Of a DNA stretch of 64,000 nucleotides, positions 14,390-58,283 are shown piece by piece; the stretch's first letter is position 1, and the number at the start of each line of letters is the position of its first letter. The translations under genes were made by a program, and so were the position numbers. The stretch is from Dyella acidiphila (lineage in GTDB: Bacteria > Pseudomonadota > Gammaproteobacteria > Xanthomonadales > Rhodanobacteraceae), in assembly GCF_014863405.1 (NCBI RefSeq), contig NZ_JACZZA010000011.1:1-64000 (forward strand), in the 5' to 3' direction. The notes under the pieces were generated by a model. That model saw only the letters and a list, made by a program, of their open reading frames with translations, searched no databases and was not told where the DNA came from.

Positions 14390-15667
14390 ATGCGGAAGCT
14401 GGAGAACACCAGGCTCGCCATTATTGGACTTGGCTATGTCGGCTTGCCGTTAGCCGTCGAGTTTGGCAAGCACTACGACACGATCGGTTTCGACATCAAT
14501 AAAGGGCGTGTCGACGAACTGCGTGCCGGCCATGACAGCACGCTGGAAGTCAGCGCTGCCGAACTGGTCGAGGCCACGCGATTGCGGGTCAGTGCGGATC
14601 TGGCCGACCTGGCCGAATGCAACACGTATATCGTTACCGTGCCGACGCCGATCGACAATGCCAAGCGCCCCGATCTCACGCCATTGGTCAAGGCGAGCGA
14701 GACGCTTGGCAAGGTGCTGGCGGCGGGTGACGTGGTGGTCTACGAATCAACCGTATACCCGGGCTGCACCGAGGAAGTTTGCATTCCCATCCTTGAAAGA
14801 GGATCGGGCCTGGTTTACAACCGCGACTTCTTCGCCGGCTACAGTCCCGAGCGCATCAATCCTGGGGATAAACAGCATCGCGTCACCAGCATTCTCAAAG
14901 TCACGTCCGGCTCCACCCCGGAAACCGCGGATTTTGTCGATAGCCTGTATGGTTCCGTAATCACCGCCGGCACCCACAAGGCGAGTTCGCTGAAGGTGGC
15001 CGAGGCGGCCAAGGTGATCGAGAACACCCAGCGCGATCTCAATATTGCGCTGGTCAACGACCTGGCCATCCTGTTCAACAAGCTCGGTATCGACACGCTT
15101 GAAGTGCTGCAGGCGGCCGGTACGAAGTGGAATTTCCTGCCGTTCCGGCCCGGCCTCGTCGGTGGCCATTGCATCAGTGTCGACCCGTATTACCTCACGC
15201 ATAAGGCACAGGAAGTCGGACACCATCCGGATGTCATTCTTGCCGGGCGCCGGACCAACGACGGCATGGGTCCCTATGTCGCCAGCGAAGTGATCCGCTT
15301 GATGGTGCGCAAAGGCATCAATCCGGTGAACGCCCGCATCCTGGTGCTTGGCCTGGCGTTCAAGGAAAATTGTCCCGACCTGCGCAACACGCGCGTGGTG
15401 GATATCACCAAGGCGCTTTCCGGTTACAACGCGCAGGTTGATGTTCACGACCCCTGGGTCAGCACCGCCGAGGCGGTGCACGAATATGCGATCACGCTCG
15501 TGAGCCAGCCTCAGGCAGGTACTTACGATGCGGTCATCATCGCAGTCGGGCATCGGGAATTCGTCGCCATGGGTGCGGAGGGCATACGGGCCCTTGGCAA
15601 GCCGACATCGGTGATTTATGACGTGAAATATGTGCTCCCGCGTGAAGCGGTCGACGGGCGCCTTTAG
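14390..15667 (+). CDS. Nucleotide-sugar dehydrogenase (TviB/WbpO type)
   Basis: 425 residues. It oxidises the C6 of a UDP-sugar to the uronic acid with NAD in two steps. Visible marks are the Rossmann motif LAIIGLGYVGLPLAVEFG, the substrate/cofactor segment TVPTPIDNAKRPDL, the catalytic cysteine in GGHCISVDPYYL and the C-terminal UDP-binding domain (LVLGLAFKENCPDLRNTR). The whole resembles the Vi-antigen TviB group more than UDP-glucose dehydrogenases, so UDP-GlcNAc or UDP-GalNAc may be the substrate. The next gene is an epimerase, as in the Vi pathway. Start chosen at the ATG giving the family's usual N-terminus. Confidence 0.9.
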   Translation: MRKLENTRLAIIGLGYVGLPLAVEFGKHYDTIGFDINKGRVDELRAGHDSTLEVSAAELVEATRLRVSADLADLAECNTYIVTVPTPIDNAKRPDLTPLVKASETLGKVLAAGDVVVYESTVYPGCTEEVCIPILERGSGLVYNRDFFAGYSPERINPGDKQHRVTSILKVTSGSTPETADFVDSLYGSVITAGTHKASSLKVAEAAKVIENTQRDLNIALVNDLAILFNKLGIDTLEVLQAAGTKWNFLPFRPGLVGGHCISVDPYYLTHKAQEVGHHPDVILAGRRTNDGMGPYVASEVIRLMVRKGINPVNARILVLGLAFKENCPDLRNTRVVDITKALSGYNAQVDVHDPWVSTAEAVHEYAITLVSQPQAGTYDAVIIAVGHREFVAMGAEGIRALGKPTSVIYDVKYVLPREAVDGRL

Positions 15668-15721
15668 TAGCGCCCTTAGGTCAGCACCATTGCCTTAACG
15701 GCCTTAACAGGATGTCATGCC

Positions 15722-16732
15722 ATGAAAGTGCTCGTCACCGGCACGGCCGGGTTTATCGGCTCGCATGTTGCACTCAAGCTGCTTGAGCGCGGCGACGAGG
15801 TCATCGGTTTTGACAATCTCAACGATTATTACGACGTCAATTTGAAAAAAGCGCGCCTGGCGCGATTCATCGAACATCCGCGCTACACGCATATCCATGC
15901 CGACCTTGCTGATCGCGATGCAGTGGAAAAGACTTTCGCATCGCACCGGCCGCAGCGCGTCATCAACCTCGCTGCGCAAGCGGGCGTGCGTTACGCCGCG
16001 GAAAATCCGCACGTTTACGTTTCCAGCAATGTCACCGGTTTTTTGCATATCCTCGAAGGCTGCCGTCGGCATTCCGTGGAGCATCTGGTTTTTGCCTCGA
16101 CAAGTTCGGTCTACGGCGCCAACACCGCGATGCCCTTCTCCGAACACCAATCGGCCGAACATCCGCTCACGCTTTACGCCGCCACCAAGAAAGGCAACGA
16201 GCAGATGGCGCACAGCTATGCGCATTTGTATGGCATTCCCAGCAGCGGGCTGCGCTTCTTTACGGTTTACGGGCCGTGGGGCCGTCCTGACATGGCGCTG
16301 TTCCTGTTCACCAAAGCCATGCTTGCCGGCGAGCCGATCCGGGTTTTCAACCACGGCAAGCACAAGCGAAGTTTTACCTACGTCGACGATATCGTTGAGG
16401 GCGTTGTGCGTACCCTGGATCGCGTACCCGGCAAAAACCCCCACTGGAATGGTGCCGCACCGGATCCGGCCAGTAGCGGCGTGGCGCCGTATCGGCTGTA
16501 CAACATCGGCAACGAGCAGCCGGTGGAACTGCTTCATTACATCGAGGTGCTTGAGCAGTGCCTGGGCCGCAAGGCAAAGATGGAGATGCTCCCTTTGCAG
16601 GCTGGCGATGTGCCGGACACCGAAGCCGATGTAACAGAATTGATACAGTCCGTTGGCTATGCGCCAAAAATTTCTGTAGCCACGGGCATCGCCAACTTCG
16701 TAAGCTGGTATAGGGATTATTACCGCGAGTAG
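15722..16732 (+). CDS. UDP-uronate 4-epimerase family protein (CapI/LspL-like)
   Basis: 336 residues of the extended short-chain dehydrogenase class: GTAGFIGSH (NAD binding), STSSVYG and YAATKKGNE (catalytic Ser/Thr, Tyr and Lys). The opening [16 protein letters not shown] is typical of UDP-glucuronate 4-epimerases of the CapI/LspL group. With the preceding dehydrogenase it should interconvert gluco- and galacto-configured UDP-uronic acids for the EPS. The pair parallels TviB/TviC of the Vi capsule. Whether the sugar is N-acetylated cannot be read directly. Confidence 0.88.
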
Positions 16733-16735
16733 CTT

Positions 16736-18460
16736 GTGCAGCTCGCCGTGGCGCACGCCAATGTGAGCATCGGGGGCGAAGTGATCATTGACTACCTGGA
16801 TGGTTCGGCCGCACCGGCCATTGACGCGGACCTCTGCATCATCGGCGCTGGCGCCGCCGGCATTGCGATCGCACGGCATTTCATCGGCACATCGATCACC
16901 GTATGCCTGATCGAAGGCGGCGGCGCCACCGGCGAAGAGCAGAGCCAGGCCTTGTACGAAGGCCTGTCGATCGGCACCCTGCCCTTCGACGCAGGCACGT
17001 CACGCATGCGCGTATTCGGCGGCAGCTGCAACTTATGGGGCGGCGGTTGCATTCCATTTGGCCGTCACGACTTAGTTGCACGGGATTGGGTGCCGCACAG
17101 CGGCTGGCCCATCGGCTACGACGAACTGAAGCCCTATTACGAGCGCGCACGCGAGTATTGCCAGATCGATGCGCACGATTTCGCCGACGGGTCATTTCTG
17201 GCGCCGCTCGCCCATGATCCGATCGCTTTCGACGCCGACAAACTGATCAATCAGGTCTTTGCACGCAGCCCGATCCTGTTCGGTAAGGCTTATCGGGAGC
17301 AACTGGACAAGGCACCGAATATCACGGTTTTGCTGCATGCAAACCTGCTCGAACTGTGTGCATCGGCCAATGCGGACACGATTAGCCACGCGCGCATCGG
17401 CACGATCGATGGGCGCACGGGCATGGTGCGGGCAGAACGCTATGTGCTGGCCTGCGGCGGCATCGAAAATGCACGCATGCTGCTGCTATCCAATGCCCTC
17501 ATGCCTACCGGCCTGGGCAACCGCCATGATCTTGTCGGTCGCTATTTCATGGACCATCCCTGCGGCAGCATGGGTGCGATTGTCACCGCTGCGCCGGAGC
17601 GGCTCACGCGGCCTTATGACCGAAACCTCGGCAAAGGCCTTGCACCGGCGTTTCCCGAAATCGGCTTGTCGCAGGCATTCCAGAAAGCGCAGCGCATCTT
17701 GAATGGACGCGTACATCCGTTTGCCGTCGAAGGCCCTGTTCCGCAGGGCATTCGGTCTCTGCGCGATTTGCGCGCCGCTTTACGGCCGACCGAGCAGGAC
17801 GAAAATGCGCTGCTCGAAGCCCGCCTTTGCGCCGCACTGCGAAATGCGCCAGCCACGGACGATGACATGCGCGAACGCAACGCCAATATTGCGATGTTGG
17901 CGCTGCGCGTCGGGCTTGGCTCTCCGGATATCGCCAGGGCGGCACTGCAAAAACTGCGACGCAGACCTACCGTGCGCAGCAATCGGGTCGAACTGATCGG
18001 ATATTTCGAACAGGCGCCGAACCCCGATAGTCGCATCACGCTCGCCCACGAACGGGATCCGTTGGGCTTGCCGAAGGTCTGCGCCGACTGGCGGATTACC
18101 GCGCTCGACCGGCATACCTATCGAATGGCGGCATCGGTGTTCGGCGCCGAGCTGGCCCGCGTCAGCGGAGGGAGCTACCAGCCTGCTGCCTGGTTGAGCG
18201 ACGACGACAACGCAACCGCCCAGGTCCACACGACTGCGCATCACCTGGGTACGACACGCATGGCCGACGATCCGCGGCAAGGTGTCGTCGACCGCCAGTG
18301 CCGCGTGCATGGCATCGACAATCTGCATATTGCGGGAAGCTCGGTATTCCCCACCGGTGGCTGGGCGTTTCCCACCTTTACGGTGGTCGCGCTCGCCCTG
18401 CGGCTTGCCGATCGGCTGAGTGCGCAGATCCGCACTGCCGCCCTGTCCGAGGCGATATAA
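16736..18460 (+). CDS. GMC-family FAD oxidoreductase
   Basis: 574 residues. FAD motif IIGAGAAGIAIARH at about residues 36-49, then GGSCNLWGGGCIPF, VLACGGIENARMLL and a C-terminal GMC domain with HHLGTTRMADDP and LHIAGSSVFPTGGWAFPTFT. Family members oxidise alcohol groups of sugars and other substrates. The usual His/Asn pair near the C-terminus is not obvious: the block reads GGWAFPT where many relatives have an Asn. The GTG start lies four bases after the epimerase stop; a second GTG at 16781 behind a G-rich stretch is possible. Co-transcription suggests it oxidises a sugar or lipid of the EPS pathway. Confidence 0.82.
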   Translation: MQLAVAHANVSIGGEVIIDYLDGSAAPAIDADLCIIGAGAAGIAIARHFIGTSITVCLIEGGGATGEEQSQALYEGLSIGTLPFDAGTSRMRVFGGSCNLWGGGCIPFGRHDLVARDWVPHSGWPIGYDELKPYYERAREYCQIDAHDFADGSFLAPLAHDPIAFDADKLINQVFARSPILFGKAYREQLDKAPNITVLLHANLLELCASANADTISHARIGTIDGRTGMVRAERYVLACGGIENARMLLLSNALMPTGLGNRHDLVGRYFMDHPCGSMGAIVTAAPERLTRPYDRNLGKGLAPAFPEIGLSQAFQKAQRILNGRVHPFAVEGPVPQGIRSLRDLRAALRPTEQDENALLEARLCAALRNAPATDDDMRERNANIAMLALRVGLGSPDIARAALQKLRRRPTVRSNRVELIGYFEQAPNPDSRITLAHERDPLGLPKVCADWRITALDRHTYRMAASVFGAELARVSGGSYQPAAWLSDDDNATAQVHTTAHHLGTTRMADDPRQGVVDRQCRVHGIDNLHIAGSSVFPTGGWAFPTFTVVALALRLADRLSAQIRTAALSEAI

Positions 18461-21067: not shown

Positions 21068-21835
21068 GTGCAAGGCTGTCGCGACCATGTTGCCGCCTGC
21101 TGCCGCTATGCCGCGGCTGGCGCCCTATGGGTTGCAGCAGCAAGTTGCGTGCCAGCCCAGGGCGCCCCGGGCGATGCCTCGACCCCTTCGTTAGGTGCCC
21201 ACACGCTGCAAACCCAGTCCGAAGGACTTGGTACCAGCCCGGTCGTCACCGATCCGATCACATCACAGCAACATGGCAGTTCGTTGATCGTCTTCAACGG
21301 CGGTTATTTGAGCAATGCTTCAGGGCCTGTCGACAGTTACGGCAATCGTTGGAAGCAACTGGGCAACGACGTTCCGTTCGGCAATGGCTACGGCGATCGC
21401 TTCAACGTCAAAGCCTACGTAGCGCTCGCCGCCAAAGGCGGCTCCGAACACACCGTCAGCTTCACCAAGAACGGCAATGCGGCGGGCGAAATCTCCGTCC
21501 CGTTCATCGAGATAAGGAATGCGGGCGTTCTGCAGGATGTCAGCCAGAACTACGCCCCTACTGGCCTGGTCATGACCAGCGGCAGCGTCACCACGACCGG
21601 TCCGGCAACACTGATCGCCGTATGGTGGGGCGATGGCGGCATCAAGCGGATGTCCGCCGTACCCAACAACGGATTCACTGTCATCGACAGTTATCTGAAG
21701 CTTCCCGATAACAGCGGCGTGCAATGCGCAGTGGCCTACAAACAGGTAGCCGCTGCGGGACGCTACGACGTCAGCTGGGCCGGCGCCCCTGCTCAGGGCG
21801 CCATTTTGTGGTTGTTGGCGTTCCAGTCCAAATAA
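21068..21835 (+). CDS. Secreted protein of unknown function
   Basis: 255 residues from a GTG that follows AGGGGGA. The N-terminus is a signal peptide (YAAAGALWVAAASCVPAQGA). The mature part is rich in Gly, Ser, Thr and Asn and reads as a beta-sandwich-like domain (SSLIVFNGGYLSNASGPVDS; HTVSFTKNGNAAGEISVPF; TLIAVWWGDGGIKRMS). No named family is recognised. The position, between the priming transferase and the NRPS genes, suggests an extracellular or matrix protein exported with the polysaccharide, or a lectin-like partner. Confidence 0.75.
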   Translation: MQGCRDHVAACCRYAAAGALWVAAASCVPAQGAPGDASTPSLGAHTLQTQSEGLGTSPVVTDPITSQQHGSSLIVFNGGYLSNASGPVDSYGNRWKQLGNDVPFGNGYGDRFNVKAYVALAAKGGSEHTVSFTKNGNAAGEISVPFIEIRNAGVLQDVSQNYAPTGLVMTSGSVTTTGPATLIAVWWGDGGIKRMSAVPNNGFTVIDSYLKLPDNSGVQCAVAYKQVAAAGRYDVSWAGAPAQGAILWLLAFQSK

Positions 21836-21873: not shown

Positions 21874-22071
21874 GCAAGTTGATCGACATGCGGCAAAACG
21901 TGGAACTCGTGGGGACTGGCGCATCAACGCCAGTATTTGCAGCTCCGGTATTTGCATTAAATGTCTGTTGCGGCAAGTAAAGACGTCGTGGCGAACGACG
22001 TACGCGATGTGTCGAAGCAAAGCGCATTTACGCCCCGCACTGACTCTTTCGTATGGCGGGAGGGCTCAATC

Positions 22072-22989
22072 ATGAACACCAGCGCGACGACACTTATCGA
22101 TCTTGATTGGGAAACCTTCGATCCGTGGCGCATCCAGGCCGTGCGTCACCGGTTGTCCGACCATCCCTTGTTGCAGCCCGATCAGTTGGTGGCCTTGGGC
22201 AAGCGGTTCCAGGGCAGCACGCGGCTGTTTACGTTCAACAACGAAGCCGGCGCCGATGCGAACTTCGATGACGTCGGCCGTCTCTATCCCAATCGAAAAT
22301 CCGCTGCCGATACGTTGCAAGGCATCAACGAAGCCAAGGCGTGGATGCTGCTGCGCCACGTGCAGGATGACCCGACCTACCGCGGCCTGGTCGACCTGGC
22401 GATGGACCCGATCCAGCCACTGATCGAACGCAAGGATCCGGGCATGCATTACCGCGCCGGATGGATTTTCGTGGCCTCGCCGCATACCACCACGCCGTTT
22501 CATATCGACCGCAATCACGGCATCCTGCTGCAGGTTCGCGGCACCAAGAAAGTTTACGTCTGGGATGCCGAGGACATCGAGGTATGCAGCGAGCACGCAC
22601 GCGACGTTTTCCATGCCCGGCATGATCTCGGATTGGTGAAGTGGGACGAGGCATTCCGCGAGCGCGCCCACGTCTACACCGTCGGCCCCGGCATGGGCGT
22701 CTACATGCCCATCACCAGTCCGCACATGGTGGAAACCGGCGACGAGCCTTCCATCACCATCAGCCTTACTTACAGCACGACGGCGACACGGCGTAACGCC
22801 ATGCGACATGTCGTGAACGACCTGCTCTACCGCAAAGGCATCAAGCCGGTACCGGTGGGCAAGCGCCCGCTGGTCGACACGCTGACCTATGCCGCCGCGT
22901 CCGTCATGGTTGCCACGCACGGCACCGGCAGCCATCTACCGGCCTGTCCATCGCTGGCGCATCCGAGCGCCTATGCATTGGCTGATTGA
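22072..22989 (+). CDS. Cupin/JmjC-like Fe(II) 2-oxoglutarate oxygenase candidate
   Basis: 305 residues. The core TTPFHIDRNHGILLQVRGTKKVYVWD carries a metal-binding HxD (His-Ile-Asp), and a later histidine in YMPITSPHMVETGD can complete the facial triad. RGTKK offers a basic residue for the 2-oxoglutarate carboxylate. This is the cupin_8/JmjC-like pattern used by amino-acid and peptidyl hydroxylases. I chose ATG 22072 because GGGAGGG lies seven bases upstream; the longer reading has no ribosome site. It stands directly before the NRPS-PKS gene, so hydroxylation of a carrier-bound amino acid is a reasonable inference. Confidence 0.75.
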   Translation: MNTSATTLIDLDWETFDPWRIQAVRHRLSDHPLLQPDQLVALGKRFQGSTRLFTFNNEAGADANFDDVGRLYPNRKSAADTLQGINEAKAWMLLRHVQDDPTYRGLVDLAMDPIQPLIERKDPGMHYRAGWIFVASPHTTTPFHIDRNHGILLQVRGTKKVYVWDAEDIEVCSEHARDVFHARHDLGLVKWDEAFRERAHVYTVGPGMGVYMPITSPHMVETGDEPSITISLTYSTTATRRNAMRHVVNDLLYRKGIKPVPVGKRPLVDTLTYAAASVMVATHGTGSHLPACPSLAHPSAYALAD

Positions 22990-30353: not shown

Positions 30354-30363
30354 GGAGCAACCC

Positions 30364-39206: not shown

Positions 39207-39276
39207 GCAGCCATCGTACCGCCCTTCTCCATCCAGCCGTCGCCGCGTACCGATCGTGGCGCAGGAGGCGTGCGGC

Positions 39277-45982: not shown

Positions 45983-46732
45983 ATGAGCAACGACCTCGTC
46001 AGCGTCATCATGCCGGTCTACAACGCCGAGGCATGGCTGCAGCGAGCCGTCGATTCGGTGCTTGCGCAAAGCCACGCCCGGCTGGAATTGATCACCGTCG
46101 ACGACGGCTCAAGCGACCGCTCACCGGGCATGCTCGGCGCTTATGCCGTAGCCGACGCACGCGTGCGGGTCCTGACCCAGTCGCGCAATGGTGGCGTCGC
46201 TAACGCTCGCAACGCGGGCATTGCAGCCGCACGGGGCAACTACATTTCGTTTCTTGATGCCGACGACTGGTGGCACCCGGCGAAACTCGAACGCCAATTG
46301 GCAAGCATGCGCGGCAGCGGCGCCTTGATCAGCTACGGCACCTATTGGCGCGTCGCCGAAGACGGTCGCGTATTGAGCCAGGTAACCCCGCCGCCGCAGG
46401 TGACCTGGCAGGACATGCTCGCCAGCAATTTCATCGGCAACCTGACCGGCATGTATGCGCGAGACCTTGGCGATGTGCCGTTTCAGCGCATCGGCCATGA
46501 GGACTATGTGTTCTGGCTGGAACAGGTGCGGCGCGCCGGCAAAGCCGTGCGCGTGGAATCCCCCGAACCCTTGGCCTGGTACCTGGTACGCGAACGATCG
46601 CTATCGGCCAATAAGCTGCGGGCGGCATCCTGGCAGTGGGATATTTATCGCAGCGTCGCCAAGCTGGGGCTGATGCAGTCGGCGTTCTGCATGGCGCGGT
46701 ATGCGCGGCATGCGATGCTCAAGCGAATATGA
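45983..46732 (+). CDS. Glycosyltransferase family 2
   Basis: 249 residues, GT-A fold: SVIMPVYNAEAWLQRAVDSV, ITVDDGSSDRS, RNAGIAAARGNYISFLDADDWW (the DxD metal site) and IGHEDYVFWLEQVR. It adds one sugar to the growing repeat unit. Last gene of the plus block, eight bases after the preceding stop, and followed by the large inverted repeat that separates the two converging EPS blocks. Confidence 0.92.
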   Translation: MSNDLVSVIMPVYNAEAWLQRAVDSVLAQSHARLELITVDDGSSDRSPGMLGAYAVADARVRVLTQSRNGGVANARNAGIAAARGNYISFLDADDWWHPAKLERQLASMRGSGALISYGTYWRVAEDGRVLSQVTPPPQVTWQDMLASNFIGNLTGMYARDLGDVPFQRIGHEDYVFWLEQVRRAGKAVRVESPEPLAWYLVRERSLSANKLRAASWQWDIYRSVAKLGLMQSAFCMARYARHAMLKRI

Positions 46733-47957: not shown

Positions 47958-49505
47958 TCAGGAGGACACCTTGGCCGCCACTCCGTGCAGGCTGTTCAAG
48001 CGCCGCATCAGCGTGCGCCCGGGTGGCCCCAGGCGGTCAGTAATCCTCGCCATCAATAGATAGTCTTCCTCGGTCCAGTACCGCACCACAAAACTGGCCG
48101 GCACGAACAGACCCACAAATATGAGACCGCCGACGATAAAGCCGAAGCGACTGGGGATCACCGCCACGCTCAGCCACGCCACCGCCGTCGCCACCAGGGC
48201 GGCGGCGAACAGGCGCGCCATGGGCATCAGCGGCAAGCTGCCGCTGGTGACTTTGCGCAAATAGAACATGGCCAGGCCCAGTTCCGCGCAGCGTGTCGCT
48301 GCGTAGGTGATCATTGCTCCGGTGAGGCCGAAGAACGGCACCAGCGCGGCTCCGAACACAGCATTGACGATCAGGGCGAGCACGGAGATGCGCACGCGAT
48401 CGTCCTGGCGGTCGACCACGATCTGGAAGGCCGCGATGCTGTTGCTGATCAGGAGCAGTCCCGCAAGCACGAGCATGGCCTCGATCGCCGGGATCGCCCC
48501 GACGTAGCGGTTGCCGTACATCAATGTGACGATTTCGGGGGTAGTGACCAGCCCTACACCCGCAATTACCAAGCCTGTCGCCCAATAGAACCGGGTTGCC
48601 TCGGTGAGCAGGCGCGCAGCTTGTCCCGTGCCGCTCTTGCCGAATGATTTGGCCATGTACGGCAGCAAGGTGGTGGTCAGGCCGACGGAGAGCAGTTCGA
48701 CAGCACCACGCGTCAGCGTAGAGGCGATCGCGAAAAAGCCGACCGCGACCGACGTCGCATAGGTGTTGAGCAGGAACACTTCGATCGTGCTCGAGCGCAG
48801 CGAAATCAGCAACACCAGCGCGGCGGTCAGTCGCAGGTGGCGCGAAAGCCGCTTGCTCACGTCATCCGGAATCGGGCCGGCGGAAAAGGGCCGACAGTAC
48901 TTGTCAAAGGCGAGCCGGTTGATCAGGTTCAACATCAGGCAGGTCACCGCGAACACCGCGAAGAACGCCACCAAACCGGCATGCATCACGGTAGCGGCGC
49001 TGATCAGCCCGACGTTGATGACGCCGGCAAGCACCGTTGCAATCGACACCGGCTCAAAACTTTCCTGTCCTTTTTCGATCGCCACCAGCATCGCGTAGTT
49101 CGCTTTGGAAACCACGGCGATGATCACCAGGGTGATGATCGGCCATAGCGATTGCCGCCATTCGACCGGACGGATCACCAGGATCGCAGCGACAAACAGC
49201 AGCACGACGATCAGCGAGCTCAGGTGCTGGTAGCGACTCAAGCGATGGGCGATATGCGACGCAAGATCAGGCCGCCCTGCCCCGTCCGCTTCAGCAATGA
49301 ACTTGGTCGACGAGGTCGTCAACGCATGATTGCTGCAGGTCATCAACCAGCTGCACAACCACACGGTGAAAGCATACCGGCCGAAATCCTCCGGTCCCAG
49401 CGTGCGCGCGATCCAGATACTGACGACCAGGCCCAACGCATACTCGACATACGTGGCGGCCGAGACCAGGGTGACGCTGCGCAATACCTCCATGCGTTGC
49501 TTCAT
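47958..49505 (-). CDS. wzx: Wzx-type polysaccharide flippase
   Basis: 515 residues with about 12-14 membrane helices. Its start, EVLRSVTLVSAATYVEYALGL, and WIARTLGPEDFGRYAF are typical of the polysaccharide-synthase/MATE-like flippase family. It moves undecaprenyl-linked repeat units across the inner membrane. The ATG overlaps the upstream stop (ATGA), deciding the start. The longer reading further upstream is coding for the neighbour in another frame. Confidence 0.9.
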   Translation of the reverse strand: MKQRMEVLRSVTLVSAATYVEYALGLVVSIWIARTLGPEDFGRYAFTVWLCSWLMTCSNHALTTSSTKFIAEADGAGRPDLASHIAHRLSRYQHLSSLIVVLLFVAAILVIRPVEWRQSLWPIITLVIIAVVSKANYAMLVAIEKGQESFEPVSIATVLAGVINVGLISAATVMHAGLVAFFAVFAVTCLMLNLINRLAFDKYCRPFSAGPIPDDVSKRLSRHLRLTAALVLLISLRSSTIEVFLLNTYATSVAVGFFAIASTLTRGAVELLSVGLTTTLLPYMAKSFGKSGTGQAARLLTEATRFYWATGLVIAGVGLVTTPEIVTLMYGNRYVGAIPAIEAMLVLAGLLLISNSIAAFQIVVDRQDDRVRISVLALIVNAVFGAALVPFFGLTGAMITYAATRCAELGLAMFYLRKVTSGSLPLMPMARLFAAALVATAVAWLSVAVIPSRFGFIVGGLIFVGLFVPASFVVRYWTEEDYLLMARITDRLGPPGRTLMRRLNSLHGVAAKVSS

Positions 49506-51229: not shown

Positions 51230-52234
51230 TCAAGCCACCGACGAGAGCGGCAGGCGCTTGTACAAAAGCTGCTGTTCCCAGCGCAGTGCGGTAGCGACGA
51301 TGAAATCGAGATCGTCGTAATGTGGCTGCCAGTCGAGTACGTGCTTGAGCCGGTCGCTACAGGCGATCAGCATGGGAATGTCGCCGGCGCGTCGCGGTAA
51401 TTCAATCACATTGAGCGGCTTGCCACCTACCCTGGCGACGGCGTTGATGACTTCACGCACGCTGTAGCCATGGCCGTAACCGCAGTTCAGGGTGAGCGAA
51501 TTGCCACCGCAGCGAAGATGATCGAGTGCACAAAGATGTGCTGCCGCCAGGTCGTCGACATGGATGTAGTCACGAATACCGGTGCCGTCCGGCGTGTCGT
51601 AGTCGGTGCCGAAAATCGACAGGCTGTCGCGAATCCCCACGGCGTGCTCGCAGCACACCTTGATCAGCAAGGTCGCGTTGGGCGTGGAATGACCGATACG
51701 GCCATCCGGATCGCAGCCGGCGACATTGAAGTAGCGAAGTATCACGTGCCGCATCGCGCCGGCGGCGCTGTGGTCACGCAACATGGTTTCGGACATCAGC
51801 TTGGAAGTGCCGTACGGATTGATCGGACGCGTCGGCGTATCTTCATCGGCAACACCGTTGTCCGTGACGCCATAGACCGCCGCCGTCGACGAAAAGATGA
51901 ATTTATCGATGCCCGCATCCGCGCAACACGCCAGCAAATTCCGCGTATTGCAGGTGTTGTTGCCGTAATACTTGAGTGGATCGCAGACCGATTCGGGTAC
52001 GACGGTGTGTGCGGCAAAGTGCATCACTGCATCGAACCGATGCGCGGCCATGACATGGCTTACCAGACCCGGATCGCCGACGTTGCCGATCACCAATTCG
52101 GCGCCGCGCACGGCTTCGCGAAAGCCGGTGCTGAGGTTGTCGATCACGACCACGCGCTCGCCCCGCGCCACCAATTGCTGGACGACGTGACTGCCGATAT
52201 AGCCGGCGCCGCCGGTAACCAGGACTGTATTCAT
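51230..52234 (-). CDS. galE: UDP-glucose 4-epimerase
   Basis: 334 residues. VTGGAGYIGSHVVQQL (NAD binding), DNLSTGF, SSTAAVYG, NPYGTSKLMSE (catalytic Tyr and Lys), DYIHVDDLAAAH and NCGYGHGYSVREVI. The set is that of the classical GalE, which interconverts UDP-glucose and UDP-galactose (or the N-acetyl forms). The ATG overlaps the upstream hydrolase stop by four bases. It supplies a galactose-type donor to the EPS, as a second epimerase beside the CapI-like one. Confidence 0.93.
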   Translation of the reverse strand: MNTVLVTGGAGYIGSHVVQQLVARGERVVVIDNLSTGFREAVRGAELVIGNVGDPGLVSHVMAAHRFDAVMHFAAHTVVPESVCDPLKYYGNNTCNTRNLLACCADAGIDKFIFSSTAAVYGVTDNGVADEDTPTRPINPYGTSKLMSETMLRDHSAAGAMRHVILRYFNVAGCDPDGRIGHSTPNATLLIKVCCEHAVGIRDSLSIFGTDYDTPDGTGIRDYIHVDDLAAAHLCALDHLRCGGNSLTLNCGYGHGYSVREVINAVARVGGKPLNVIELPRRAGDIPMLIACSDRLKHVLDWQPHYDDLDFIVATALRWEQQLLYKRLPLSSVA

Positions 52235-53055
52235 GGGGATCCCCCCGTCATGACGGGAAAATTGTCGGAAAGCCAGCGCTCGACGTTGTCCAGCAGTCGG
52301 TTGCGATCGCCGGTGAGGATGTAGGTGTGATCGGCTTCCTTCAGGAACCGGGTAAAGACGCCTGGGCGGCTGACGACCCGGCCAAAACATTCGCGGAACT
52401 GGCGCGCGTGATTGAAATACCGGCTGATCCCGCCGCTATAGATCAGGCACAGCTTGAGGCCGCGATCGAGCATGCCGGCGAAATCGGCGCGTACCACCGC
52501 TTGCGGCAAGGGCGCCACGGTAAAGGCTGGCTCGCCGCTGCCCTCTGGCGCCTGGCGTCGGCGTGAAAGGACGAGCAGCCAACGTTTCATGTCCAGCAGG
52601 CGCGGGAGGTAATAGCGCAGGTGATAACCGACCGTGCGATACGCGTAGCCGTCGAGAAAAACCGCGCCGGCCACCTTGGGGTCGCTGCACGCCACCATGT
52701 GCGCGCTTTGCGAACCGGAACACAGGCCGATCAATACAAAACGCGTGCACGCGGCCTGCTCGCCGAGCAGATGCATCGCGTCCTCCACATCTGCGCAGAT
52801 CTGCTGTTTGCGGGTCTGCGACTCGCCGCTGGCGGCGCTATCGCCGATGGTGGAAAGATCGAAGCGCAAGGTGGGATAGCCATCGGCATTCAACCGGCGG
52901 GTCATCTCCACATGCAGGCGGAACGGTCCGATCCGATGCACCAGTCCCGCGTTGAGCACGATCACGCCAACCGTTTCCGGTGCTTGCGTCGACGGCAATC
53001 CGGCGATGCCGACCAGATGCCGTGCGCGTCCAAAACGGAAAGCCCGCTCTTGCAT
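52231..53055 (-). CDS. Alpha/beta hydrolase, resembling exosortase-A-associated hydrolase 1
   Basis: 274 residues, the usual length of that family. GVIVLNAGLVHRIGPFRLHVEM, LRFDLSTIGDSAASGE and FVLIGLCSGSQSAHMVAC give the alpha/beta-hydrolase frame; ADHTYILTGDR carries the C-terminal His. The nucleophile elbow reads GLCSG, so the nucleophile would be Cys or the elbow is shifted. Such paired hydrolases accompany exosortase-A EPS loci and their substrate is unknown. The gene starts on the last base of the preceding stop (TGATG). Confidence 0.75.
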   Translation of the reverse strand: MQERAFRFGRARHLVGIAGLPSTQAPETVGVIVLNAGLVHRIGPFRLHVEMTRRLNADGYPTLRFDLSTIGDSAASGESQTRKQQICADVEDAMHLLGEQAACTRFVLIGLCSGSQSAHMVACSDPKVAGAVFLDGYAYRTVGYHLRYYLPRLLDMKRWLLVLSRRRQAPEGSGEPAFTVAPLPQAVVRADFAGMLDRGLKLCLIYSGGISRYFNHARQFRECFGRVVSRPGVFTRFLKEADHTYILTGDRNRLLDNVERWLSDNFPVMTGGSP

Positions 53056-53837
53056 CACGCCGCCTCCCGCACATGTTGCGTGACGGCCTGGATCAGCGGG
53101 TGCGACAGAATGGCCACCTCGAGCCGGCGTGGATCGTTCCAGGGCGTGGCAGACTCCATGCGTCTGACGGCGGCGGCATCGATCATGAAGCCGCCCCAGG
53201 ATGGCGGCGCATCGGATGCAAGCGAGTCGAGCAGAAGCATCGGCGCGGCCGGGCGGTCGACATGCAAATTCGCCAGCTGCTGACGAAACCCGTCGCTGAT
53301 CGCAAATCCGAGCCATTGCGCGGCGACATCGTCTGCTTTGCGCGGCACCATGAAACGTTGCCCGTCGAGGCGCAGCGCCGACTGCATCGCATCGAGCTGC
53401 GCCACGTACGCGCGACCGTCGAGCACGGGGTCCCATGCCACGATGCCGGCAAGGCGTGCCTGCGCCGCCGATGCCAACGCAATGCTTCCGCCCAGGCGCG
53501 CGCCAAACGCCAACACGCGGTCAACACCGCTGCGCGCCCGCAGTTCGTTGGCCGCGGCCGCGGTATCGGCCAGGCAGCGCTGCCAATCCATCTCCACGCT
53601 GCCGCCCGCCGAGTCTCCTGTGCCGTAATAGTCGAAGCGCAGGACGGCAATGCCTTCGGCTGCCAGCGCCTGCGCCAGTTGCCGGTAAAGGCGATGGCAA
53701 CGTATCTGGTCCTGCCCCAGCGGCGGGCATAGCAGCACCGCCTTCCGCGCCGGTGTGGCGCTCGCGTGGAACAGGCCGAACAGCGCGCTTTCCGGCCCAA
53801 AATAGAACGGCACCTCTGTTTCGGGGCGCGCGCTCAT
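53055..53837 (-). CDS. Alpha/beta hydrolase, resembling exosortase-A-associated hydrolase 2
   Basis: 260 residues. KAVLLCPPLGQDQIRCHRLYR, VLRFDYYGTGDSAGG and VLAFGARLGGSIALAS are typical of the second hydrolase of exosortase-A loci. At the nucleophile elbow it has GARLG, with Arg where Ser is expected, so it may be catalytically silent or use another residue; the same block in the family as I remember it also lacks the Ser. The ATG overlaps the stop of the outer-membrane protein gene. Possibly a partner of hydrolase 1 in attaching or removing an acyl group. Confidence 0.75.
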   Translation of the reverse strand: MSARPETEVPFYFGPESALFGLFHASATPARKAVLLCPPLGQDQIRCHRLYRQLAQALAAEGIAVLRFDYYGTGDSAGGSVEMDWQRCLADTAAAANELRARSGVDRVLAFGARLGGSIALASAAQARLAGIVAWDPVLDGRAYVAQLDAMQSALRLDGQRFMVPRKADDVAAQWLGFAISDGFRQQLANLHVDRPAAPMLLLDSLASDAPPSWGGFMIDAAAVRRMESATPWNDPRRLEVAILSHPLIQAVTQHVREAA

Positions 53838-55204
53838 CGCTTGAACACCACGCTGAAAAACACTTCGTTCTCGTGGTAGCTCTGGTCGATCGCGTTGCTG
53901 TTCCGCACTTGCCGGATGTAGGAAACGTGCCAGGTCCAGTGCGGCGCCCACTGATGCCCGAGATCCACGCCATAGCGATAGGTCTTGTCGGTCCGCTCCA
54001 GCGACGTATACGTCAACCTTTCTGCATTGGCGAAGGCGGTAATCACCGTGCTCGGGCGAAGGCGATAATCGGCGCTGACCGTGCCGCCGCGGGTGGATTG
54101 ATCGAACGTGTCGTTATTCAAATACGAAAGCTTGTCGTACGTCGGCGAAATCGACAGCTGCAAGCGTTCGGTGTGGTAGGTGTAGGTCGCCTCCAGGGTC
54201 TTTTCGAGATAAACCTCCGAGTCGATCACCAGATTGCCGGTGCTGATGCCCCCACCGGGGTTGTAGAGAAAGTCGGTCGGATTCTCGTCCAGGATGTTGA
54301 CGACGCTCTGCCCAGGCTGCAAAAACATGTCCTGCGCGGCGTCGGAAAACTGATAGGCGCCGGTAGTGGACAAGGTCTGGTGCGGAGTGAATTGCCAATC
54401 CAGGGTGATCCTCGCCATGGGCTTGGAATCGCCGCGGGCATGATCAAAGTCGATCTTCGACCAGCCTGCCAGCACATCGGCACTGAAGTGCGCGAGCGTG
54501 CTGGTGTAGCGGGCGTAGGCTTCGTCGCGTGTGTAATTGGGTGTCGCCAGGGTGCTGTCGACCCCATCGACCAAGTCGGTGGTGACGTTATCGTCGAATC
54601 TCACCCGCTGCGATTCGAGATTCAGCGAAATCGTGTCGGTCGGATTGAGATCGCGATACAGCCGGAACGCCGCCACGCCACGGCTGGAATTGAAGTCCTG
54701 CACCTTCGAGGCGTAGCTGTTGAGATAGTGGAGCTCGACTTGCGCGCGCATGACGTCGCCGAACTGAAGGTGCAGTGTCGGCCCCAGCGATACGACGTTG
54801 GTTTGTTGCCGGTTGTTCGGTGCATTGCTGGCCAGCGAGTCGACCGGCTCAACGCCGGCGTAATCCTCGACGGTGAAGTCCAATCGCTTCGGCAGTATCG
54901 TCCAATTGGCCTGACCGGCCAGCTCGGTCTGTGTCTGATTGGCAAATTGATGCCCGAGATAATAGTCATCCTGGAACGTGCCGCTTACGTTGGCCTGGAA
55001 TACCGAGCCTTGCTGCAGGTAGTTGAAATTGAACCCCGGCATGAAGACGTTCTGGCTGATCGGGTTGCTGTCGCTCAGCGTAATGTTGTCGCTATGTTCG
55101 ATGCTGCCGAAGATCGAGTAATCGAACTGCGAGGCCCATACCGCACCCGGCGCGACGGCAAGCGCAAGCGCCATGACCCGAGCGAGCGTGGTAGATGCCG
55201 GCAT
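53834..55204 (-). CDS. Outer-membrane beta-barrel protein of the EPS system
   Basis: 456 residues with a signal peptide (VMALALAVAPGAVWA). The mature part is a series of amphipathic strands (FDYSIFGSIEHSDNI; VSYIRQVRNSNAIDQ) ending in VFFSVVFKR. This is a pattern like the outer-membrane proteins (TIGR03016-like) of exosortase-A EPS loci, and about 18-20 strands are plausible. It may form the exit channel or an accessory pore with the Wza-like protein, whose barrel domain is absent. Confidence 0.78.
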   Translation of the reverse strand: MPASTTLARVMALALAVAPGAVWASQFDYSIFGSIEHSDNITLSDSNPISQNVFMPGFNFNYLQQGSVFQANVSGTFQDDYYLGHQFANQTQTELAGQANWTILPKRLDFTVEDYAGVEPVDSLASNAPNNRQQTNVVSLGPTLHLQFGDVMRAQVELHYLNSYASKVQDFNSSRGVAAFRLYRDLNPTDTISLNLESQRVRFDDNVTTDLVDGVDSTLATPNYTRDEAYARYTSTLAHFSADVLAGWSKIDFDHARGDSKPMARITLDWQFTPHQTLSTTGAYQFSDAAQDMFLQPGQSVVNILDENPTDFLYNPGGGISTGNLVIDSEVYLEKTLEATYTYHTERLQLSISPTYDKLSYLNNDTFDQSTRGGTVSADYRLRPSTVITAFANAERLTYTSLERTDKTYRYGVDLGHQWAPHWTWHVSYIRQVRNSNAIDQSYHENEVFFSVVFKR

Positions 55205-55265
55205 TTCCTCCCCCCTTCCCTAAGTGCGTTGCCTCGAATGCGCTGCAGCCCAGTCGCCTTTCTTC

Positions 55266-56045
55266 CTACGCCGACTGATTGAAAACCACTCCCGCGAGCT
55301 TGCCTGGGTCGAAATTGGCGACCGCCTGATTGATGGCGGCCGGCGTATCGCGCCCATAACCCACCACCACCACCACAAAGTCGGCCAGATCCGACAAGAT
55401 GCGCGCGTCCGGGGAGCCGTTGACGGCCGGCCCATCCAGAAACAGGTAGCGGTCGCTGTAGCGACAGCGCAGCGAATCGAGCATCGCGCGCATGCGGAAC
55501 GACGAGAAGAATTCGCCGCCGTTTTCGCGTGACGTACCCGCCGGCACCAGGCGCATGCGCGGAATACCGGTCTGGTAGATGATCGATTTGAGGCCGCGGA
55601 TGGGGTGCTCGAGATATTCGATCAAGCCGCCTTTTTCGGGATCCACGCCCAGCGCCTTGTGCTGACTCGGATAGCGCAGATTGCAATCGACCAGCAAGCT
55701 GGTCTTCGCTTCGTCGAAGGCGAACGCCGCCGCCAGATTGCGCGCCACGAAACTGCCGCCCGAATGCGGACTGACCGAGACCACCAGGGTGATGAAGTTC
55801 TGGCCACCCGCAAGCTGGAGCAGGCGCGTGCGAATTTCGCGAAACGCATCGGACTGGCGGCGTACCGAATCCTCGCGGTGGATCAAGCGCCGCTGTTCCA
55901 ACTGCGCAGGCACCAGCGCACGCCCACCTTCCGTCATCAACGCAATCGAATGGCTCGGCGAGGGAGTGTCTTCGATGTTACGTACGCCGGCACCGGCCTT
56001 AGGATCCCGGCGATCGGTAAAAACGCTTTCGTCATGGGTACTCAT
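55266..56045 (-). CDS. BY-kinase-like P-loop protein with a degenerate Walker A motif
   Basis: 259 residues. The fold is that of CpsD/Wzc-type tyrosine kinases: SLLVDCNLRYPSQHKALGV corresponds to Walker A', and RYLFLDGPAVNGSPDAR to Walker B. The Walker A segment reads VSPHSGGSFVARNLAAAF, with no Lys and no GKS/T. There is no tyrosine cluster at the C-terminus (it ends VVFNQSA). Kinase activity is therefore doubtful. Such proteins could regulate the neighbouring chain-length protein by binding it. The ATG three bases after the upstream stop is preferred over a TTG two codons earlier. Confidence 0.82.
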   Translation of the reverse strand: MSTHDESVFTDRRDPKAGAGVRNIEDTPSPSHSIALMTEGGRALVPAQLEQRRLIHREDSVRRQSDAFREIRTRLLQLAGGQNFITLVVSVSPHSGGSFVARNLAAAFAFDEAKTSLLVDCNLRYPSQHKALGVDPEKGGLIEYLEHPIRGLKSIIYQTGIPRMRLVPAGTSRENGGEFFSSFRMRAMLDSLRCRYSDRYLFLDGPAVNGSPDARILSDLADFVVVVVGYGRDTPAAINQAVANFDPGKLAGVVFNQSA

Positions 56046-56047
56046 GC

Positions 56048-57592
56048 TCAACCCCTGTGCCGGACCCAGAAAAGAATCAGGTAAAACGCGGCGACCCCCA
56101 CTGCGATCAAGATCAACAGGGTGTTGTGCAGCCGGTCGCGTCGGCGATCACGCGGAGTTGGGTAGAACGGAACCGCTGCCAGGACGTTGGCACCGAGCGC
56201 GCGCTCCAACTGGTCGGCTGAACGCACCCGCGGGTCGAAACGCACCAGGGCGAACAACAAGCCGAACGGGATGGCGATCGATAACAGCAGGCCGGCCGCT
56301 CCGAAGTGCATGAAGCGCAGGCCTGACGGCACCAGCGGCACCACCGCGGGATTCTGGATAAGAAAGGTCAGGCCGCGTTGCTCGGCGTCGAGATTCATCG
56401 ACACCCGCGCGTTCTCACGGCGCTTCAACAGGTCCTGGTAGACGTCGCGATTGACGTCGTAGTCGCGCGTCAGCTCGGAGGTTACATTTTCCGAGTTGGA
56501 GATGCGTTTGCTTCGGTCCAATTCCGTGGCAAGCATCGAATTGCTGGCCCCGATGCGCGCTTCGGCGGCGGCGGCATCGCTTTCCGTAGCGGCAAGCTGG
56601 ATCTTCAGTTGCTGATAAAGCGGATTCATCTGCACCGCGTTATCCAGGGGTATCGGCGTACCGGCCGCCTGTGCCGCCTGCTTGCGCTGATCCGACAGAG
56701 CCATCTGCTGGCGCAGGTCCTGGATCTGATGCCGAAGTCGGATTACGTCGGGGTATTGGTCGGTATAGGTGAGCAGAAGTTTGTCGAGCTGGCTCTGCAG
56801 ATCGGCGAGCTGGGTGTCATAGATCCCTTGCGTGGTATGCACCGCGTTGACTTCCGACTCGCCAGACAGCTGTGCCTGCAACGCCGCCGCCTGCGAGCGC
56901 TTTTCGGTCAGCTGCAACTGCGTATTCTCGATTTCCGTACGCAGCTGGCTGATGCGCGAATTGGTATCGGAATCGCTACCGGGCCGGGCGTCCACATTGG
57001 AGTCGCGATAGGACTTGAGCTTGTCTTCGGCGTCGGTCAGCTTGCGCCGGTAGGCCTCGACCTGGCTATTGATGAAATCGTAGGCGTCGCGGCTTTCGCG
57101 CTGTTTCGAGGCGAGGCTTTCGCTGATGAAAAGATGCGCGAACGCCTGTGTTACCAGGAACGCCCGTCTCGGCTCGGAATCGGTATAGCTGATCGTGATC
57201 AAATTGCCGTGCGAGATCTGCACCTTGGTACGGGCTCGAATGCCCTCGGTGATGATGTCGCGCTGGATCGGCGTCGGATGCGTCGCCATCCAGCCGCCGA
57301 CCTCCAGAATCTGGTCCAGCACTTTGCGGCTGAAGATCACATTCTGGGCGATACCCGCCCGATTGGTGTTCGCCGTCGCCGCGGCCGCCCCCTCCATCAG
57401 TGGCGTAATGATGTTGCTTTCCTGCGCCAGAATGGTGGTGGAAGCTTCGTATTTTTTTGGCCAGAACATGCCCGCGACCAGTGCCGCGATCGCAATCACG
57501 GCAAACGCGACGCCCACGGCCATGCGGCGCCGCCGCACTTCGGTCAACAGTGCAGGCAGCATGCCGCCTAAAGGTGCGAGTTCTCCCCCCAT
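56048..57592 (-). CDS. Wzz/GumC-type chain-length determinant
   Basis: 514 residues. A membrane helix near 24-45, a long periplasmic part with coiled coil (about 165-370: DAEDKLKSYRDSN; ISQLRTEIENTQLQLTEKR) and a second helix near 427-448, then SADQLERALGANVLAAVPF, the link to the kinase partner, and a third hydrophobic end. It sets EPS chain length together with Wzy and joins Wza-like and P-loop proteins. It resembles the chain-length protein of exosortase-A loci. The kinase is split off as the next gene, as is common there. Confidence 0.88.
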   Translation of the reverse strand: MGGELAPLGGMLPALLTEVRRRRMAVGVAFAVIAIAALVAGMFWPKKYEASTTILAQESNIITPLMEGAAAATANTNRAGIAQNVIFSRKVLDQILEVGGWMATHPTPIQRDIITEGIRARTKVQISHGNLITISYTDSEPRRAFLVTQAFAHLFISESLASKQRESRDAYDFINSQVEAYRRKLTDAEDKLKSYRDSNVDARPGSDSDTNSRISQLRTEIENTQLQLTEKRSQAAALQAQLSGESEVNAVHTTQGIYDTQLADLQSQLDKLLLTYTDQYPDVIRLRHQIQDLRQQMALSDQRKQAAQAAGTPIPLDNAVQMNPLYQQLKIQLAATESDAAAAEARIGASNSMLATELDRSKRISNSENVTSELTRDYDVNRDVYQDLLKRRENARVSMNLDAEQRGLTFLIQNPAVVPLVPSGLRFMHFGAAGLLLSIAIPFGLLFALVRFDPRVRSADQLERALGANVLAAVPFYPTPRDRRRDRLHNTLLILIAVGVAAFYLILFWVRHRG

Positions 57593-57659
57593 AACATCCC
57601 TCTTCTTTCCACATCCCTAAAAACCGCTTGCAGGCATCCCATAGGCGCTGAGCGCGCGA

Positions 57660-58283
57660 TCAGAACGCACGCTGCGGCACTGTGATCACGTCCCCCGGCT
57701 GTACCGGATAGTTGTTGGCGATATCGCCTTTCTGCAGAATTTTGTCCAAATGCACGGCGTATGAATCCGAACTCCCGCCATCGCCTTTGCGATACAGTTC
57801 AGTGCGGTCGGGCGCGGCAAATTCAGTAATACCGCCGGCGGCCAGGACCGCGTCCAGCACCGTCATGCCCTGGCGATAAGGAATGGAAATCGGGCTACGT
57901 ACCGCGCCGGTGACCCGCACTCGCGACAGATACTCATTGCTGCGCAGCGCAACGAGAATGACCGCAACCTGTGGATCGCGAATATAAGACTGCAGTTTGT
58001 CTTTGATGTCGGCGGAGACTTGGTCCGGGGTTCGTCCGCCAGCGACCACGTCGCCAATCAGCGGAACGGTGATTTTGCCGTCCGGCCGCACCGGGACGCT
58101 AACGCTGAGGTCCGGGTTATGCCAAACGGTGATTTGTAACTGGTCGTCAACACCAATGTGGTACGTGGTTACAGCCTGCATTTCGGTATTGAGCTTCGGC
58201 GGCGCGCTGGAACCGCCCGTCGTTGTACAGGCAGCCAGCAGCCATGGCAGACACAGTGCAAAACAGCGACAGAGCCTCTTCAT
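57660..58283 (-). CDS. Wza-like polysaccharide export lipoprotein (short form)
   Basis: 207 residues, much shorter than Wza (about 380), like the exosortase-A type exporter. Lipobox LLAAC with Cys19; poly-export domain (YHIGVDDQLQITVWHNPDLS, residues about 41-115) and one SLBB domain (RVRVTGAVRSPISIPYRQGMT). The C-terminal barrel helix of true Wza is absent, so the nearby beta-barrel may serve as the pore. First gene of the minus operon, with a good -10 about 45 bases upstream. Confidence 0.88.
   Translation of the reverse strand: MKRLCRCFALCLPWLLAACTTTGGSSAPPKLNTEMQAVTTYHIGVDDQLQITVWHNPDLSVSVPVRPDGKITVPLIGDVVAGGRTPDQVSADIKDKLQSYIRDPQVAVILVALRSNEYLSRVRVTGAVRSPISIPYRQGMTVLDAVLAAGGITEFAAPDRTELYRKGDGGSSDSYAVHLDKILQKGDIANNYPVQPGDVITVPQRAF

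Follow-up and report, generated by a model that had tools for sequence, protein, structure and literature searches.

A hybrid PKS/NRPS assembly line in an exopolysaccharide locus of Dyella acidiphila and its predicted product

Several described systems resemble parts of the locus that we analyze here, an exopolysaccharide (EPS) locus with a polyketide synthase/nonribosomal peptide synthetase (PKS/NRPS) assembly line in Dyella acidiphila (contig NZ_JACZZA010000011.1, positions 1 to 64,000; this whole stretch of 64,000 nucleotides is called the window). The EPS loci that accompany exosortase A (XrtA) and PEP-CTERM proteins share with it the Wza, chain-length and priming-transferase families, which score over cut-off here, a related barrel, P-loop protein and hydrolases, and the order carrier-hydr2-hydr1 with Arg and Cys elbows in the two hydrolases. 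The window differs in lacking an exosortase and any PEP-CTERM protein over cut-off, in carrying a full PKS/NRPS line in place of the ligase and decarboxylase, and in having hydrolases that fall below the curated cut-offs. Mycosubtilin synthesis follows a ketosynthase (KS)-thiolation (T)-aminotransferase-condensation (C)-adenylation (A) logic, like the order of the two window proteins P1 and P2, and the best PDB match of the aminotransferase here is MycA of mycosubtilin synthesis (397 bits). Unlike the mycosubtilin/iturin PKS-NRPS, the line opens with an A domain for an amino acid (Val or Pro code) and not with a fatty-acyl ligase; it also adds only two or three residues, has no thioesterase and sits in an EPS locus.

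Two further systems modify or build surface molecules. In Dlt D-alanylation of teichoic acids, adenylation and a carrier serve to add positive charges to an anionic polymer of the cell surface, with a single amino acid, in Gram-positive bacteria and with transfer by DltB/DltD, unlike what we propose here. In mycobacterial glycopeptidolipids, NRPS and PKS enzymes build a surface glycoconjugate (PMC3537567); theirs is a glycolipid made by another assembly line, and here the locus is that of a Wzx/Wzy polysaccharide. Searches of open-licence literature showed no NRPS-EPS system among the titles and abstract openings listed, which does not prove that none has been published. New in this analysis are the collinearity and co-occurrence of line and EPS genes, the tracking of a hydrolase pair with the line, a product prediction from adenylation codes and the glycosyltransferase surroundings of Bacteroidota lines. 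We propose, with confidence evenly balanced, that the line makes a small compound, which the hydrolase pair releases and which decorates the EPS or accompanies it.

The locus and its assembly line

Within an assembly of 5.07 Mb (99.97% complete), a single large EPS locus spans 14.3-58.3 kb of the window. It is of the Wzx/Wzy type and contains a PKS/NRPS line, the genes of which (P1 and P2) sit mid-locus; Pfam confirms the two large NRPS/PKS proteins (23052-30353 and 30346-36795) that a preliminary description of this DNA had placed there. The Wzx/Wzy-type set comprises a priming transferase (PF02397), a flippase (PF01943), a polymerase/ligase (PF04932) and Wza (PF02563), as well as a chain-length protein identified by TIGR03007, its PF02706 match reaching only 24.1 against a cut-off of 25.5. 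Glycosyltransferases, deacetylases and sugar-nucleotide enzymes round out the locus (NCBIfam, Pfam), and a PADLOC scan of seven locus proteins gave no match. The genes are as follows, with paired values giving score and cut-off in bits.

14321..15667 (+): UDP-N-acetylglucosamine/UDP-sugar 6-dehydrogenase (TviB type), uronic-acid sugar nucleotide supply; NF011729, 624 bits, cut-off 592
15722..16732 (+): NAD-dependent sugar-nucleotide epimerase (TviC/GalE-like); several epimerase models, all under cut-off
16736..18460 (+): GMC oxidoreductase; PF05199
18783..20180 (+): polyprenyl-phosphate sugar-phosphate (priming) transferase; TIGR03013 554.1/393.35; PF02397
20200..20898 (-): DnaJ-domain protein; PF00226 29.3/27.8; position shared with several relatives
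21068..21835 (+): protein of unassigned family, secreted-looking by reading; no Pfam or NCBIfam match; kept in several relatives
21961..22989 (+): Cupin_8/JmjC-type putative Fe(II)/2-oxoglutarate oxygenase, possible PKS/NRPS tailoring enzyme; PF13621
23052..30353 (+): P1, putative remnant-A1 (Val code)-T-KS-acyltransferase (AT)-T-beta-aminotransferase, 2433 aa; Pfam, code, MycA PDB match
30346..36795 (+): P2, C-A2 (Gly-like code)-T-C-A3 (dead)-T, 2149 aa; Pfam, codes, motifs, dN/dS (ratio of nonsynonymous to synonymous substitution rates)
36841..37941 (+): polysaccharide deacetylase; PF01522
37941..39206 (+): O-antigen ligase/polymerase (Wzy_C); PF04932; TIGR03097 69.8/188.1
39178..40635 (+): PaaK-type AMP-dependent ligase, real start probably internal to the open reading frame (ORF); NCBIfam
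40629..41789 (+), scanned as 40560-41789: GT4 glycosyltransferase (stp2-like); NCBIfam
41786..42955 (+): GT4 glycosyltransferase (TuaC-like); NCBIfam
42700..43593 (+): second polysaccharide deacetylase, real start probably internal to the ORF; NCBIfam
43590..44789 (+), scanned as 43356-44789: GT4 glycosyltransferase (stp3-like); NCBIfam
44789..45973 (+): conserved protein of unassigned family, N-terminal membrane anchor by reading; no Pfam or NCBIfam match; 73-91% identity in nine related loci
45983..46732 (+): GT2 glycosyltransferase (TuaG-like); NF047683 200.6/400
46982..47932 (-): methyltransferase-like protein by sequence reading; no profile match
47958..49505 (-): Wzx-type flippase; PF01943
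49502..51229 (-): protein of unassigned family; no Pfam or NCBIfam match; kept in several relatives
51230..52234 (-), scanned as 51230-52390: UDP-glucose 4-epimerase GalE; TIGR01179 428.5/262
52231..53061 (-), scanned as 52231-53436: hydr1, alpha/beta hydrolase with Cys at the nucleophile elbow; TIGR03100 79.4/168.45
53055..53840 (-), scanned as 53055-53951: hydr2, alpha/beta hydrolase with Arg replacing the nucleophile; TIGR03101 89.5/202.75
53837..55204 (-): outer-membrane beta-barrel; TIGR03016 57.9/90.85; PF10082 23.2/23.7
55266..56051 (-): P-loop (tyrosine-autokinase-like) protein, separate from the chain-length protein; TIGR03018 171.7/230.65
56048..57592 (-): chain-length determinant; TIGR03007 384.2/278.85
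57660..58283 (-): short Wza-type export lipoprotein; TIGR03027 208.7/180; PF02563

Pfam gives the domain order A-T-KS-AT-T-aminotransferase for P1 and C-A-T-C-A-T for P2. Active-site motifs are intact save in A3, with NTACST in the KS, GHSVG and HAFH in the AT, the Ser of the T domains and HHxxxDG in the C domains; we take the HAFH motif of the AT to be malonyl-type. The aminotransferase is of class III, and its Lys is invariant in 9 of 9 aligned rows. No thioesterase domain was detected in P2. The first ~225 aa of P1 evolve fast (dN/dS 0.34-0.41) and have no Pfam match and no HHxxxDG; they may represent the remnant of a C domain that lacks this motif.

The A1 code (DALWLGGTFK) is of Val type, and the near codes DALWIGGTFK and DAFWLGGTFK are assigned to Val in passages of PMC12283262 and PMC9113097, which also give Val, Gly and Pro assignments for such adenylation codes. 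A2 carries DIMQVGGVYK, a variant of the Gly code DILQLGMIWK, and intermediates between the two occur in relatives. Across 31 rows of the window's clade in the aminotransferase tree, tallied by eye, A1 is in view in 29 (Val type 23, Pro type 3, other 3), and A2 is Gly-like in 23, a DMPQ variant in 4 and of other codes in 4. A3 of the window (code row SDVFCGVLVR) is without core motifs and without the last Lys; at P2 residues ~1550-2040, it is flanked by a C domain and a carrier domain that are both intact. Some relatives have an intact A3 (e.g., L057, L060, G001, and G020), and others (L056, L059, L064, and G024) have none. In two comparisons, dN/dS is 0.21 and 0.22 for A3, 0.08 and 0.11 for C2, and 0.05 and 0.04 for T3. 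Thus C2 and T3 have been retained despite the decay of A3, and the simplest way to account for this would be that A2 loads T3 in trans.

These codes predict a beta,gamma-diaminoacyl-glycine, in which A1 would supply Val (Pro in some relatives), followed by malonate, beta-amination, Gly and perhaps one more Gly. The preliminary description had considered a lipopeptide-like compound, an idea that we reject as unsupported, since the A domain that starts P1 has the code of an amino acid, Val. The PaaK-type ligase (39178-40635) could activate some other acid, and a relative of it is also present in the EPS locus of G019, a genome without the line.

Conservation with EPS genes and contexts in other phyla

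Three genomes of the same genus (G014, G005, and G006) share with the window an identical arrangement of 29 genes, which runs from the sugar dehydrogenase to ElyC, mostly at 80-95% identity and with lower values for the PaaK ligase, the second deacetylase and the DnaJ protein; this collinearity excludes chance. A further genome (G013) keeps the 29-gene order as far as its contig extends. Locus order is largely kept in G024, G020, and G001 (P1 identity 73, 65, and 60%, respectively). G018 retains only part of it, and its line consists of one 3280-aa protein that belongs to another clade (P1 44%). Whole P1 and P2 display dN/dS values of 0.13-0.14 versus 0.09-0.10 for Wza, the chain-length protein and the priming transferase, and are thus under purifying selection close to the level on the EPS genes.

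Within a set of 25 Rhodanobacteraceae genomes (G000-G024), the EPS barrel is present in 11 of the 11 genomes with P1 and in 1 of the 14 without (Fisher p 2.7e-6, kinship ignored). P1 and the barrel lie on different contigs in G008 and G016, so that physical linkage holds for 9 of the 11. Collinearity and barrel co-occurrence bear out the PKS/NRPS-EPS link drawn in the preliminary description. More broadly, the aminotransferase is found at E≤1e-150 in 53 of 117 sampled family genomes and 18 of 26 genera, counts that include more distant clades. Poly_export lies ≤40 kb from the aminotransferase in 12 of 14 Lysobacterales-clade genomes versus 0.44 expected, with expected values that ignore contig ends; the two misses are on contigs of 31 and 81 kb.

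EPS loci are known exchange regions, and the PKS/NRPS genes could be hitchhikers in a genomic hot spot, their position among EPS genes being meaningless. The aminotransferase tree offers this explanation some support: G001, of the same genus, and Rhodanobacter rows stand nearer to the Lysobacteraceae rows than to the window, and G018 and another Rhodanobacter belong to a clade far from it, which points to past transfer or old paralogy. However, the collinearity in relatives, the EPS-like purifying selection, the barrel co-occurrence and the polysaccharide neighbors of the line in Bacteroidota all argue against it, and we consider it very improbable and largely refuted within Rhodanobacteraceae. 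The conserved arrangement in many relatives suggests that EPS and line product cooperate at the cell surface.

In Bacteroidota, GT2 glycosyltransferases (PF00535) account for 21 of 122 ORFs neighboring the line on ten contigs. Among 126 control ORFs taken from those contigs, PF00535 falls outside the 25 commonest families and thus has at most 2 matches, and our own GT2 model matches 22 neighbor ORFs, on 7 of the 10 contigs, versus 2 controls. The same 122 ORFs include 7 phosphopantetheinyl transferases (PPTases), 5 Branch-family glycosyltransferases, 4 DegT proteins and 3 GMC oxidoreductases. This census left out ORFs of <180 or >900 aa and 13 NRPS-like ORFs, and the ten contigs include two from closely related Pedobacter (G068 and G075). 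Outside Lysobacterales, Bacteroidota and Burkholderiales, Poly_export is near the line in 3 of 11 genomes versus 0.54 expected.

The Cupin_8 gene just upstream of P1 accompanies it in 10 of the 11 family genomes that carry P1, was found in 0 of the 16 that do not (14 from the set G000-G024, together with G033 and G037), and is near the line in 13 of 24 further line-bearing genomes. Its HxD...H triad is kept in 28 of 28 aligned rows, homologues of <60 bits having been dropped and the query being counted twice, and the protein is therefore a possible hydroxylase; a comparison with PDB sequences gave no match at E≤0.1.

The hydrolase pair and the missing sorting system

The hydr2-hydr1 pair belongs to the assembly line. 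Each of the 11 P1-bearing genomes has it, and none of the 16 others does; three of these 16 (G019, G033, and G037) have the EPS barrel, and two more, G004 and G015, show two weak single hydrolase matches each, on different contigs. In many relatives, including Lysobacter, Xenophilus, Variovorax, Corallococcus, and Aquabacterium, the pair lies closely 3' of the last NRPS gene. The elbow residue is Cys in 29 of 29 hydr1 homologues and Arg in 29 of 29 hydr2 homologues of >60 bits, those of <60 bits having been dropped and each 30-row alignment counting the window twice. PDB profile matches of both proteins are mainly generic esterases and hydrolases, which cannot tell a thioesterase from other chemistry.

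In addition, the pair appears to alternate with a thioesterase in cis. PF00975 was detected in 8 of 10 NRPS C-termini tested (six of the ten from Bacteroidota) and not in those of L115, which has the pair, and L112. Of 59 genomes, 33 have the pair only, 22 the thioesterase only, two both and two neither; the pair was counted only when near the line, and 30 of 89 aminotransferase rows were dropped because their pair and thioesterase states were not both known. Strict alternation is contradicted by the two Lysobacter lines with both (L065 and L066) and the two lines with neither, and on the aminotransferase tree the pair changes five times and the thioesterase six times, with a sign test median p of 0.25. 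Four independent tree contrasts are mostly in the expected direction, too few for significance, which leaves the alternation suggestive, not proven. In L065 and L066, P2 has an internal thioesterase-like domain between two carrier domains, with the pair downstream; the lines with neither belong to a Lautropia, which has the pair elsewhere in its genome, and to an Acidobacteriaceae metagenome-assembled genome. Co-occurrence, position and thioesterase alternation together support a role for the pair in releasing or transferring the chain.

Both hydrolases also connect the locus to XrtA. As the preliminary description had claimed, the short Wza, the chain-length protein and the priming transferase are XrtA-like, scoring over the cut-offs of TIGR03027, TIGR03007, and TIGR03013; the P-loop protein, the barrel and the two hydrolases, which it had added to these families, prove to be related to them but under the curated cut-offs throughout (TIGR03018, TIGR03016, TIGR03100, and TIGR03101), as does the TIGR03097 match of the polymerase/ligase. 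It had also correctly noted the lack of sorting: genome-wide, the exosortase model PF09721 gave 0 matches at E≤1, and no protein exceeds the PEP-CTERM cut-off (best TIGR02595 match 14.7 bits versus 16, E 0.53). Likewise, the line does occupy the place of the small acyl module (ligase, carrier and pyridoxal phosphate enzyme), the order carrier-hydr2-hydr1 being common to many relatives. No stand-alone TIGR03098 ligase was reported in the locus, where this model matches only the A domains of P1 and P2 (222 and 317 bits versus 592), and no TIGR03099 decarboxylase match was reported among the scanned locus proteins.

Two XrtA-type loci encode a small carrier protein, TIGR03101 and TIGR03100 in that order, both over cut-off and with Arg/Cys elbows, and a TIGR03098 ligase nearby; one of them (L155) also has TIGR03099. 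Both genomes have exosortases on other contigs, and each also holds a second, weaker pair that is linked to an NRPS. In the genomes of L115 and L117, NRPS-linked hydrolases coexist with TIGR03100 proteins over cut-off, which marks the former as a separate subfamily.

The window locus could be a former exosortase A locus that lost XrtA and its PEP-CTERM substrates and recruited PKS/NRPS genes for the small acyl module, as the three proteins over XrtA-family cut-offs and the gene order and elbows of the two XrtA-type loci would allow. Yet no full-length exosortase was found in the 25 line-bearing Lysobacterales-clade genomes (11 of G000-G024, G041-G049, G051-G053, G083, and G084), which show two weak partial PF09721 matches (G005, 25.7 bits with an internal stop; G045, 28.9 bits) and thus no sign of a lost exosortase in this lineage. 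The coexistence of both kinds of hydrolase in the genomes of L115 and L117 also speaks against this history. Furthermore, G019, G033, and G037, the searched genomes with the EPS barrel and without the line, have only short half-matches and no full-length exosortase, which argues that these EPS families are not tied to sorting. We regard such an origin as improbable; the loss of sorting proposed in the preliminary description is unsupported, and the lost-exosortase scenario was rejected, no remnant being present in the window genome in a search of this genome and 54 others.

Across these 55 genomes, PF09721 matches occur in 16, and a full-length exosortase is present in 7 of 8 line-bearing Burkholderiales-clade genomes, the Nitrococcus genome and both Aquabacterium genomes. 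In the latter, it lies ~50 kb (G088 C25; L135, L117) and ~40 kb (G090 C27; L139, L129) from the line on the same contig, and both hold further exosortase matches. The short ORFs (172-225 aa, 33-41 bits) that match approximately the second half of PF09721 are located at G019 C1:684080, G023 C1:44807, G033 C14:122032, and G037 C4:211361. G028 and G039, with weak barrel matches, stood outside the exosortase, hydrolase and Cupin_8 searches.

Proposed product and its fate

From the genes, domains, conservation, co-occurrence and pair/thioesterase alternation computed here, we infer what the product looks like, the loading in trans, a hydroxylation step, removal of the chain by the pair and its attachment to polysaccharide. 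A1 would load valine onto T, and KS-AT would extend it by malonate with no reduction; the MycA-like aminotransferase would then convert the beta-ketone to an amine, yielding a 3,4-diamino-5-methylhexanoyl chain, to which P2 would attach glycine. A second residue is probably placed on the last carrier, where A3 is dead and loading would fall to A2 in trans, and the Cupin_8 enzyme may act as a hydroxylase on an intermediate. Because the line has no thioesterase domain, hydr2 and hydr1, with their Arg and Cys elbows, are the candidate enzymes for removing the chain from the last carrier. In keeping with the peptidyl-decorated polysaccharide suggested in the preliminary description, the product would most likely be attached to, or exported with, the EPS, and the acidic polymer would become partly cationic. 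Attachment is suggested by the location and shared history of the genes and by the scan of locus proteins with NCBIfam, in which no exporter family besides the flippase and Wza was reported; uronic-acid and deacetylase genes could in addition supply acceptor groups.

Several observations weigh against this proposal. The strongest is the context in Variovorax and Xenophilus, which runs counter to an obligatory EPS role: the line and hydrolases are near a short-chain dehydrogenase, a PP-loop protein, a phosphatase and a radical SAM protein, and none of the Burkholderiales neighbors scanned (L069, with clusters recurring in L068 and L070) is a polysaccharide gene, so that synthesis of the product does not require EPS genes nearby. 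Poly_export near the line is not enriched in Bacteroidota (1 of 17 versus 0.91 expected) or Burkholderiales (1 of 8 versus 0.24, some contigs being short), and 3 of the 10 Bacteroidota contigs have no GT2 neighbor. No enzyme attaching peptide to sugar was identified with certainty in the locus. As for the chemistry, the A2 code of the window agrees with the Gly code DILQLGMIWK at only 5 of 10 positions, 11 of the 24 genomes outside the first set have no Cupin_8 gene near the line, and G018 lacks this gene.

The line could instead make a free diffusible small molecule, e.g., a metal chelator, signal or protease inhibitor, its genes being kept with those for EPS by shared biofilm conditions. In Variovorax and Xenophilus, the line and hydr2/hydr1 (in L068 also a PPTase) have no EPS genes among the scanned neighbors, the cis thioesterase of Bacteroidota and others would suit release of a free compound, and a vicinal diamine with glycine could bind metals. 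However, the NCBIfam scan of locus proteins reported no gene family dedicated to export or uptake, and the tight co-occurrence with the EPS barrel within the family and the glycosyltransferase neighbors in a second phylum also disfavor this explanation, which we treat as a genuine if somewhat doubtful possibility.

If, as we propose, the product is decorating or accompanying EPS, bacteria would tune the charge and chemistry of their slime by nonribosomal enzymes, beyond free antibiotics or siderophores. Two hydrolases that NCBIfam names by exosortase A association alone would then have a function in handling carrier-bound acyl groups. Both ideas are testable in environmental bacteria because the pair and the cis thioesterase appear to replace each other. 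More speculatively, and in our view rather unlikely in this full form, the loci could define a widespread, undescribed class of surface-polymer modification, in which a compact line builds a carrier-bound diamino-acyl-glycine (Val or Pro, malonate, beta-amination, Gly) and an obligate hydrolase pair with Cys and Arg elbows transfers it to polysaccharide to give cationic or zwitterionic EPS, and of which the XrtA carrier/ligase/hydrolase module would be a small version.

Finally, some neighboring genes recur with and without the line. Relatives of the 44789-45973 and 49502-51229 proteins are present in G019 and G037, respectively, with no P1 found in either EPS locus; the latter protein is possibly polysaccharide-active, by resemblance. 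A GMC oxidoreductase is located ≤40 kb from the aminotransferase in at least 9 of 50 genomes, a raw lower count with no chance level beside it that covers Lysobacterales, Rhizobium and Bacteroidota; among the matches listed, the distance is ≤~31 kb in G041, G042, G043, G089, G065, G068, G064, G073, and G075. Upstream of the EPS locus, a lipid/stress-type gene run (1597-10290, + strand) encodes a desaturase, an FAD amine oxidoreductase, DUF1365, two CMAS-type methyltransferases, DUF1295, an extracytoplasmic function (ECF) sigma factor and an RskA-like anti-sigma factor.

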